Source: Pseudacidovorax sp. NFM-22
GTDB taxonomy: Bacteria > Pseudomonadota > Gammaproteobacteria > Burkholderiales > Burkholderiaceae_C
DNA: 64,000 bases
Assembly (NCBI RefSeq): GCF_021401245.1
Contig: NZ_JACBFY010000002.1
Coordinates: 186,001-250,000, forward strand
Reading direction: 5' to 3'
Under the pieces are notes generated by a model. That model was given only the letters and a program-made list of their open reading frames with translations. It did no database searches and was not told where the DNA came from. A program made the translations under genes and the position numbers. Within the stretch, counting starts at the first letter, position 1; each line of letters opens with the position of its first letter. Shown one piece after another: positions 26,030 through 28,835 of the stretch.

Positions 26030-27145
26030 TCAACCGCGACGCTTCTTCACCGCCTGCGACAGCACATCCAGCAGGCTGCGCGAATCGTCCCAGCCCAGGC
26101 AGGCGTCGGTGATGCTCTTGCCGTATTCCAGCGCCGACGGCACATCCTTGCCCGGCGAGAACTTCTGCGCGCCGGCCTGGATGTGGCTCTCCACCATCAC
26201 GCCGAAGACCTTGCGGCTGCCACCGGCGATCTGGTCCGCGATGTCGCGCGCCACGTCGACCTGCTTCTGGTGCTGCTTGCTGCTGTTGGCATGGCTGCAG
26301 TCCACCATCAGCGTGGGCGGCAGGCCGGCGGCCTCCAGGTCGCGGCAGGCGGTCTCGACGCTGGTGGCGTCGTAGTTGGGCGCCTTGCCGCCGCGCAGGA
26401 TCACATGGCAGTCCTTGTTGCCATTGGTCTGCACGATGGCGACCTGGCCGTTCTTGTGCACCGACAGGAAGTGGTGGCCGCGCGCCGCCGCCTGGATGGC
26501 GTCGGTGGCGATGCGGATGTTGCCGTCGGTGCCGTTCTTGAAGCCGATGGGCGCCGACAGGCCCGAGGCCAGTTCGCGGTGCACCTGGCTCTCGGTGGTG
26601 CGCGCGCCGATGGCGCCCCAGGCGATCAGGTCGCCGATGTACTGGGGCGAGATCACGTCCAGGAACTCGCTGCCCGCCGGCAGGCCCATGCGGTTGATGT
26701 CGATGAGCAACTGACGGGCGATGCGCAGGCCCTCGTCGATGCGGTAGCTCTCGTCCAGGTACGGGTCGTTGATCAGGCCCTTCCAGCCGACGGTGGTGCG
26801 CGGCTTCTCGAAGTACACGCGCATCACGATCTCCAGCGAGTCGGCGTACTTTTCGCGCTCGGCCTTCAGGCGTCGGGCGTAATCCAGGGCCGCGGCCGGG
26901 TCATGGATGGAACACGGCCCCATCACCACCAGCAGCCGGTCGTCCTGACCGGCCATGATGTTGTGGATGTTGCGGCGGGTGTCGGTGATCAGCTTCTCCA
27001 CGGCCGTGCCGTGGATGGGGAAGAAGCGGATGAGGTGTTCCGGAGGGGGCAGCACGTTGATGTCCTTGATGCGTTCGTCGTCGGTCTGGCTGGTTTTCTC
27101 GACGGGCGCATACCAGGGGTTGGCGGTGGCATTGCTGCTGTTCAT
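26030..27145 (-). CDS. aroG: 3-deoxy-7-phosphoheptulonate synthase (DAHP synthase, class I AroG type)
   Basis: This enzyme condenses phosphoenolpyruvate and erythrose 4-phosphate, the first step to phenylalanine, tyrosine and tryptophan. The 371-residue protein has the class I landmarks: VMGPCSIHDP, RVYFEKPRTTVGWKGLINDP, KNGTDGN and VDCSHANSSK. The start MNSSNATANPWY has a Shine-Dalgarno AAGGA. A leader peptide and terminator/antiterminator lie directly upstream (27195-27325), so expression should respond to charged aromatic tRNAs. Which of the three amino acids inhibits the enzyme cannot be told. Confidence 0.95.
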   Translation of the reverse strand: MNSSNATANPWYAPVEKTSQTDDERIKDINVLPPPEHLIRFFPIHGTAVEKLITDTRRNIHNIMAGQDDRLLVVMGPCSIHDPAAALDYARRLKAEREKYADSLEIVMRVYFEKPRTTVGWKGLINDPYLDESYRIDEGLRIARQLLIDINRMGLPAGSEFLDVISPQYIGDLIAWGAIGARTTESQVHRELASGLSAPIGFKNGTDGNIRIATDAIQAAARGHHFLSVHKNGQVAIVQTNGNKDCHVILRGGKAPNYDATSVETACRDLEAAGLPPTLMVDCSHANSSKQHQKQVDVARDIADQIAGGSRKVFGVMVESHIQAGAQKFSPGKDVPSALEYGKSITDACLGWDDSRSLLDVLSQAVKKRRG

Positions 27146-27194: not shown

Positions 27195-27231
27195 AAAAAA
27201 AACCGCCGGGCTTTTGGCACCGGCGGTTTTT
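27195..27231 (-). terminator. Transcription attenuator (terminator) of aroG
   Basis: On the minus strand CCGCCGG (27226-27220) pairs with CCGGCGG (27209-27203), flanked by A-T pairs, and ends in eight T. It lies between the leader peptide stop and the aroG start. The terminator loop contains CCAAAAG. Both CCGCCGG and CCAAAAG are complementary to the leader (27270-27276 and 27287-27293), so a 7+7 bp antiterminator can replace it. Confidence 0.9.
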
Positions 27232-27250
27232 GAGGGTTGGGTTGTTGCGT

Positions 27251-27325
27251 TTACGCGCGCGCCTCTCGTCCGCCGGAGTCCGGGAACCAAAAGTAGGCAA
27301 AGTAATAAGCGCGTTGAGCGAACAT
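27251..27325 (-). CDS. aroG leader peptide (24 residues, aromatic-rich)
   Basis: An ATG-initiated frame of 24 codons ends at TAA 27253-27251. Residues 7-14 read YYFAYFWF, seven aromatic residues in eight, with one more Phe at position 2. All three aromatic amino acids are represented. The density and position just before a terminator are diagnostic of ribosome-mediated attenuation. If ribosomes stall in this run, codons 17-19 (TCC GGC GGA) stay free and pair with the terminator's left arm. If they reach the stop, those codons are covered and the terminator forms. The frame has no Shine-Dalgarno; the promoter places the 5' end at or next to the ATG. Confidence 0.9.
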   Translation of the reverse strand: MFAQRAYYFAYFWFPDSGGREARA

Positions 27326-27333
27326 GGAGCGCG

Positions 27334-27361
27334 ACTCTAGCACGTGAAAACGGCTTGCCAA
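27334..27361 (-). promoter_or_regulatory. aroG leader promoter (-35 TTGGCA, -10 TAGAGT)
   Basis: On the minus strand TTGGCA (27361-27356) and TAGAGT (27339-27334) are 16 bases apart. The -10 ends eight bases before the leader ATG, so the transcript should start at or a few bases before it. The promoter begins 13 bases after the tldD stop codon. Confidence 0.75.
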
Positions 27362-27374
27362 GCTGTATTTATGT

Positions 27375-28835
<1,461 letters not shown>

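Follow-up and report, generated by a model that had tools for sequence, protein, structure and literature searches.

What does the short open reading frame (ORF) immediately upstream of aroG do in the 64-kb stretch of Pseudacidovorax DNA analysed here (hereafter the window)? The gene encodes a DAHP synthase, the enzyme that commits carbon to all aromatic amino acids, and the ORF is crowded with codons for those same amino acids and is followed by an intrinsic terminator. An earlier note on this DNA had read the arrangement as trp/phe-type attenuation with pooled sensing of Phe, Tyr and Trp. The features of the locus are as follows, all on the minus strand and given in the direction of transcription, with the basis of each in brackets.

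27375..28835, minus: upstream gene, TldD-like (ORF only)
27356..27361, minus: -35-like hexamer TTGGCA, 16-nt spacer (sequence)
27334..27339, minus: extended -10 (TG-c-TAGAGT), ending 8 nt before the leader ATG (sequence and relatives)
27251..27325, minus: predicted leader peptide ORF, MFAQRAYYFAYFWFPDSGGREARA followed by a stop codon, 24 codons, no SD (ORF reading and comparison)
27284..27307, minus: putative control codons 7-14, Y Y F A Y F W F (ORF reading and comparison)
27280..27293, minus: segment 1, CUUUUgGUUCCCGG, able to pair with segment 2 (fold and swap test, moderate support)
27262..27276, minus: segment 2, CCGGCGGacgaGAGG, predicted antiterminator arm (GGCGG core retained whatever the reading frame)
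27232..27235, minus: CCUC, 5' part of segment 3, pairing with GAGG at 27265-27262 (fold and swap test)
27220..27230, minus: segment 3, left arm of the terminator, AAAACCGCCGG (complementarity, covariation, fold)
27199..27209, minus: segment 4, right arm of the terminator, CCGGCGGTTTT (complementarity, covariation, fold)
27195..27202, minus: U-run (8 T) of the intrinsic terminator (sequence and relatives)
26030..27145, minus: aroG, type I 3-deoxy-7-phosphoheptulonate (DAHP) synthase (profile match and genome search)

AroG belongs to the type I DAHP synthases (TIGR00034, 543 bits against a cut-off of 173), and no other DAHP synthase gene was found in the window's genome: a search with the AroG protein returned its own gene as the only match, no type II DAHP synthase was found there, and the sole other PF00793 protein was KdsA. 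The closest named locus, among the best 80 of 590 confirmed loci, belonged to an uncultured Pseudacidovorax with 97% AroG identity.

The leader ORF lies between aroG (ATG at 27145) and a gene that we take from its sequence to be TldD-like (stop at 27375), with 49 bp between the stop of the latter and the leader ATG. Its translation, MFAQRAYYFAYFWFPDSGGREARA, agrees with the 24-codon frame (27325-27251, minus strand) and the YYFAYFWF stretch at residues 7-14 that the earlier note had described; seven of these eight residues are aromatic. On either strand of the window it was the only ORF of 8-45 codons with at least six aromatics in eight codons, and such an ORF occurred in none of 40 shuffled windows; shuffling the 250-nt upstream region 2000 times never gave seven or more aromatics in eight codons. 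The aromatic ORF before aroG is genuine and not a product of chance. The leader peptide had no Pfam or NCBIfam match, and no Rfam family, amino acid leaders and T-box included, matched the window at its gathering score. The best Rfam match to the element (E ≤ 10) was a full-length one to Leu_leader (RF00512; E = 0.1); its 18.9 bits fall short of the gathering score of 50, and membership was rejected.

The element also gave a weak full-length match to BcKCsr7 (RF02884; 14.8 bits, gathering score 59). Identity with this Burkholderia sRNA was rejected, as the strong match lies before argD and not aroG. Across 150 genomes, BcKCsr7 exceeded its cut-off in a single match (92.6 bits; locus L083, 1514-1665, genome G119), directly upstream of an acetylornithine transaminase (argD) gene. 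The matched stretch contains a 16-codon ORF, MLSLQTNLRRRRSLLP, in which four consecutive codons specify Arg, and a hairpin that resembles a terminator and bears a T-run; these features make it resemble an attenuator with an arginine leader peptide more than a free sRNA.

The distribution of the aroG leader was first assessed at the aroG loci of named genomes that ranked as the best 80 of 590 confirmed; 79 of these close loci had usable upstream sequence. When any ATG-started ORF with four or more aromatics within ten codons was taken as a leader, 75 of the 79 had one; the exceptions were two Cupriavidus and two Polynucleobacter loci (L076, L077, L079, L080). These four were excluded before alignment, together with L046 (4 nt upstream) and L020 (no T-run). 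The set of 107 leaders used below (77 near and 30 of other families; 102 distinct peptides) holds 72 of the 75 near leaders because L020 lacked a T-run and L040 and L042, dropped further, failed the hairpin filter. The earlier note had named a lack of conservation of the aromatic run or the stems in close relatives as grounds for abandoning its reading, and the comparison found both to be conserved.

At the level of the order, aroG was found in 149 of 200 genomes, and 110 aroG upstream regions were fetched, one of them that of the window. A filter for an ATG-started ORF, aromatics and a terminator was passed by 34 of the 109 others, in 13 families. In a fourteenth family (f20), the sequence model matched before aroG and the leader (L175) failed the filter, as did L145; both are positive by eye. 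The leader was thus seen in 14 of the 33 families fetched (at least 14 of the order) and was not seen in the other 19, a point against the attenuator reading; five more families (f9, f17, f24, f37, f49) had an aroG match with upstream regions outside the fetched set. The 45 best model matches in the 200 genomes (E ≤ 6.4e-6, one per genome), for which the position relative to aroG was checked, all lay 15-146 nt upstream of aroG on the same strand. At E ≤ 0.01, 81 of the 200 genomes were matched, many by the terminator only, and some of the weaker matches were also near aroG; in the window's own genome, the leader was the sole match below E = 0.05.

Outside the order, the model matched 6 of 274 genomes of the class (E ≤ 1e-5): three in the window's own family, two (f63) before aroG, and one to the terminator only. 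Among 60 aroG upstream regions from other families of the class, leader and terminator occurred together in two, both of f63 (L203/L258 and L204/L256), while three others (L220, L235, L247) contained an ORF with five aromatics and, by eye, no such architecture. A Solimonas record (L024) carried the leader before an aroG 83% identical to that of the window. Horizontal movement of aroG together with its leader is a possible reading of the f63 and Solimonas cases. None of the 11 second aroG copies fetched (L181, L183-L191, L194) passed the leader filter; two that failed it (L184, L185) have Trp/Phe-rich ORFs. Genome G158 has a copy (L096) that is nearer to the window's AroG and without a leader, and a more distant one (L124) with a leader. 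Control of the aroG copies probably differs.

The start of the transcript was approached through promoter spacing. The window has TTGGCA-16-TAGAGT with the TG of an extended -10. At 75 of 76 loci, an extended -10 (by-eye consensus TGnTACATT) ended 6-9 nt short of the leader ATG, compared with 0.5% of shuffled upstream stretches searched with the same finder; in the outlier (L036), an in-frame upstream ATG gives a spacing of 10. No common -35 was seen by eye in the relatives, and an SD-like motif was present at 1 of the 76 loci. At the 34 loci of the order, the best -10-like hexamer lay 6-9 nt before the ATG in 20 and an SD-like motif occurred in 1. From this spacing, the transcription start is predicted at or next to the A of the leader ATG, and the -10 spacing together with the lack of an SD therefore suggests that the leader is probably read from a leaderless mRNA.

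Whether the run is selected as peptide or as nucleotides was addressed in the 107 leaders. Aromatic codons made up 713 of 831 run codons, compared with 493 expected from position-wise base frequencies; Phe was encoded by TTT 295 times and by TTC 155 times, and Leu TTA and TTG together occurred only twice. The translated residues therefore appear to matter. Phe was present in all 107 leaders, Tyr in 102 and Trp in 87 (on average 4.36, 1.64 and 0.88 per leader, respectively), and all three occurred in 85 (70 of 77 near leaders, 15 of 30 in other families). Downstream of the run, selection seems to act on the RNA. The GGCGG core was read in frames 0, 2 and 1 in 58, 36 and 4 of the 98 scored leaders and was usually followed by a GAGAGG-like motif; in 8 of the 98 the stop came directly after GGCGGA or GGCGGC, so that the motif spans the stop. 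These eight loci (L012-L014, L016, L045, L049, L065, L069), from Acidovorax, Extensimonas, Curvibacter, Simplicispira and Comamonas, keep GAGAGG across the stop. With GGCGG in all frames and the motif running across the stop, the part downstream of the run is therefore best read as an RNA element.

Three pairings are predicted within this region. The terminator (3:4) joins 27230-27220 with 27209-27199; the whole hairpin with its eight-T run (27231-27195), as already drawn in the earlier note, folds at -21.7 kcal/mol, a stability reached by none of 200 shuffles. The predicted antiterminator (2:3) joins CCGGCGG (27276-27270) to CCGCCGG (27226-27220), a complementarity on which the earlier note was right, and GAGG (27265-27262) to CCUC (27235-27232); these pairs appear when 27276-27210, which a stalled ribosome would leave exposed, is folded to minimum energy. 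The 1:2 hairpin joins 27293-27280 with 27276-27262 at -15.2 kcal/mol. The antiterminator had previously been drawn with 7+7 bp, of which the inner CCGGCGG helix stands and the outer one does not: CTTTTGG (27293-27287) is complementary to CCAAAAG in the window, and this helix was rejected as a functional part, since just 9 of 75 aligned leaders form it in full (gaps scored as unpaired) and its covariation is no better than shuffled (0.063 vs 0.073; 471 of 500 shuffles at least as high). That drawing also lacked the GAGG:CCUC extension, the possible 1:2 hairpin and the promoter position that implies a leaderless mRNA.

On the whole alignment, RNAalifold recovered the terminator only and nothing on the leader ORF part; alignment-free swap tests, whose permutations ignore relatedness, were used in its place. 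The 2:3 duplex of each leader with its own partner averaged -17.21 kcal/mol, against -15.76 kcal/mol for swapped partners, and 0 of 20000 permutations were as good; with one leader per family, 161 of 20000 were. Outside family f1, the duplex beat the mean other-family swap in only 19 of 30 leaders. Cells with two-sided changes numbered 11 for the terminator and 8 for the antiterminator (0 of 500 shuffles for each), and two antiterminator pairs had a two-sided change, which is not unusual (374 of 500 shuffles). The two outer antiterminator pairs were broken in 17 and 16 of 37 distinct arm sets, and the core is invariant partly by choice, because the arms were anchored on a GGCG-like core. At the sixth core position, a left-arm A (20 leaders, 8 families) was met by T in the ORF arm in 13, and a left-arm G (77 leaders) by C in 55, A in 17 and T in 5. 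In the window alone, the antiterminator did not stand out (z = -0.63; 52 of 200 shuffles reached its stability). Overall, terminator and antiterminator are well supported by the comparison. The 1:2 hairpin is moderately supported: 0 of 20000 permutations were as good overall and 978 of 20000 with one leader per family, z was -1.85 in the window alone (13 of 200 shuffles as stable), and against shuffles of segment 1 the mean z was -0.78, falling below -2 in 10 of 107 leaders. That 104 of 107 leaders form at least five 1:2 pairs carries no weight here, because 93% of segment-1 shuffles do so as well.

The position of the aromatic codons was then related to segment 2. In the near group, the aromatic frequency upstream of GGCGG was 0% at 8-10 nt, 49% at 11-13 nt, 84% at 14-16 nt and 95% at 17-22 nt; in other families it was 10% at 8-10 nt, 33% at 11-13 nt, 77% at 14-16 nt, 67% at 17-19 nt and 97% at 20-22 nt. 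The front of a ribosome lies about 12 nt beyond the first base of its A-site codon, and 17-22 nt before GGCGG is the distance at which a stalled ribosome would just clear segment 2. Stalls at Tyr11, Phe12 and Trp13 would cover most or all of segment 1 and free segment 2, while stalls at codons 7-8 would not combine segment 1 cover with a free segment 2. In the window, the best stall positions hold one codon each of Tyr, Phe and Trp. Among the 107 leaders, all three residues lay within 11-22 nt before GGCGG in 37. Only Tyr was missing from this span in 40, only Trp in 18 and only Phe in 1; in the remaining 11, Phe was the sole aromatic there. A Trp codon lay at a good stall position, 14-19 nt before GGCGG, in 62 of 77 near and 12 of 30 other leaders. 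The commonest end of the stop codon (34 of 98) is 24 nt past the start of GGCGG, a position from which a terminating ribosome would cover GGCGG only in part; this counts against an attenuator.

Taken together, the locus has a predicted short ORF rich in end-product codons, an intrinsic terminator between this ORF and the structural gene, and a 2:3 pairing that excludes the terminator and is kept across species, more weakly so with one leader per family. The conserved leader, terminator and antiterminator support the earlier trp/phe-type reading, and on this comparative evidence the element is probably a ribosome-mediated transcription attenuator of aroG (probability about 0.88). Conditional termination, the stall positions and the amino acids that act are what we infer for it. 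RNA polymerase would start at or next to the leader AUG, giving the leaderless mRNA expected from promoter spacing, and a ribosome would follow closely, translating the 24-codon peptide. If charged Phe-, Tyr- and Trp-tRNA are sufficient, the ribosome would proceed towards the stop, and either its own cover or the 1:2 hairpin would keep segment 2 unavailable, allowing the terminator 3:4 to form. When an aromatic tRNA is short, the ribosome would stall at about codons 11-13 (one Tyr, one Phe, one Trp) and cover segment 1, so that segment 2 becomes available to segment 3; CCGGCGG:CCGCCGG and GAGG:CCUC would then form, and polymerase would read through into aroG.

Other accounts of the locus fare less well. 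A chance ORF, which has nothing in its favour except the U-rich composition, is of negligible probability given the shuffled windows and upstream regions and the recurrence of the leader at the close loci. The hairpin could instead be a constitutive terminator of the TldD-like transcript, or the source of an sRNA, with the ORF incidental; it is indeed a strong terminator downstream of that gene, but a promoter-like site lies between the two, and the ORF, segment 2 and the terminator are conserved jointly beside aroG, which makes this very unlikely. Equally improbable is a TnaC-like arrest, in which the nascent peptide itself stalls the ribosome on a free amino acid or other ligand. The aromatic-rich chain and a PGGRE-like tail conserved in the near group would suit it, but the tail is not conserved as peptide, as the three frames of GGCGG and the stops directly after GGCGGA or GGCGGC indicate, and Phe, Tyr and Trp interchange within the run.

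What an attenuator at this position would sense may be read in two ways. The pooled sensing of the earlier note is putative: 85 of 107 leaders contain all three aromatics, and only 37 have them together in the best stall slots. Tentatively, at a little below even odds, the leader may act as an OR-gate in which a shortage of any of Tyr, Phe or Trp opens the only DAHP synthase gene, widespread and through a leaderless leader; as all three fill the best slots in only those 37 leaders, the gate may therefore be two-input elsewhere. If so, a single RNA switch in such bacteria would stand in for the isoenzyme-specific repressors that serve E. coli. The same attenuator might instead sense Phe, with Tyr minor and the Trp and Tyr codons adding little, a reading that we hold at appreciably less than even odds. 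Phe is the one residue found in every leader and the most frequent, at least one of the three aromatics is missing in 15 of the 30 leaders outside the near group, the best stall slots hold all three in only 37 of the 107, and the C. glutamicum aroR leader is reported, in the excerpts available of PMC11802643, to respond to Phe and not Tyr. Against a Phe sensor stand the prevalence of Tyr and Trp among the 107 leaders and the placement of Trp codons at 14-19 nt, which is frequent in the near group.

Under the attenuator reading, the control of betaproteobacterial aroG becomes directly testable, since a leader can be recognised in 14 or more families of the order. For annotation, the gain is a missing short gene and an RNA element, of which the window copy has no Rfam, Pfam or NCBIfam match. 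As a natural design, one leader may read several tRNA pools on an apparently leaderless mRNA.

Among known systems, the E. coli leaders trpL and pheL use ribosome stalling at end-product codons to decide between terminator and antiterminator, the choice proposed here for aroG. Each of them responds to one amino acid, precedes branch genes and is SD-led, whereas the window leader has mixed aromatics, precedes a DAHP synthase gene and lacks an SD. The Sinorhizobium meliloti trpL leader peptide is leaderless and starts at the mRNA 5' end, as is predicted here; it is Trp-specific, stands before trpE(G) and belongs to the alphaproteobacteria. In the Vibrio aroA-tyrA nomenclature, aroA is the DAHP synthase gene. 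Vibrio aroA-tyrA entries appear in a list of putative attenuators whose table is limited to tyrA operons (PMC1173090, in excerpt). In the available parts of PMC11802643, E. coli trpL and pheL are named as leader genes and the E. coli DAHP synthase genes are described as repressed by regulators with bound amino acids; attenuation of E. coli aroF was hypothesised (cited in the excerpts available of PMC8632094).

The main text of one attenuator survey (PMC2965389), in the portion available, does not mention aroG or DAHP, and among the literature matches listed neither a betaproteobacterial aroG leader was recognised nor control of a betaproteobacterial DAHP synthase gene found. The earlier description of the arrangement as unusual is fair for betaproteobacteria and too broad otherwise, as attenuators of DAHP synthase genes are known in Corynebacterium and predicted in Acholeplasma. 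As in the window, the C. glutamicum aroR leader places an aromatic-codon leader peptide and an attenuator before a DAHP synthase gene, aroF (excerpts of PMC4046766 and PMC11802643); the accessible part of the review adds that, for this Phe-Tyr-Phe leader, Phe limitation, and not Tyr availability, affects transcription (PMC11802643). The likeness is by description only: C. glutamicum belongs to another phylum and its F-Y-F motif is short, whereas the run of the window leader is longer, and aroF is one of two DAHP synthases there (PMC4046766, in excerpt), compared with one found in the window's genome. The uORFC-13-1 motif of Acholeplasma aroF likewise sets a predicted Phe-coding uORF and then a terminator before a DAHP synthase gene; as given in the excerpts of PMC8632094, it has 24 representatives (Acholeplasma and environmental DNA), with an RBS and at least one Phe, and is a prediction only. 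Relative to these attenuators, the element described here is new in its lineage, its long mixed aromatic run, its probable leaderless start and its place before the only DAHP synthase gene found.
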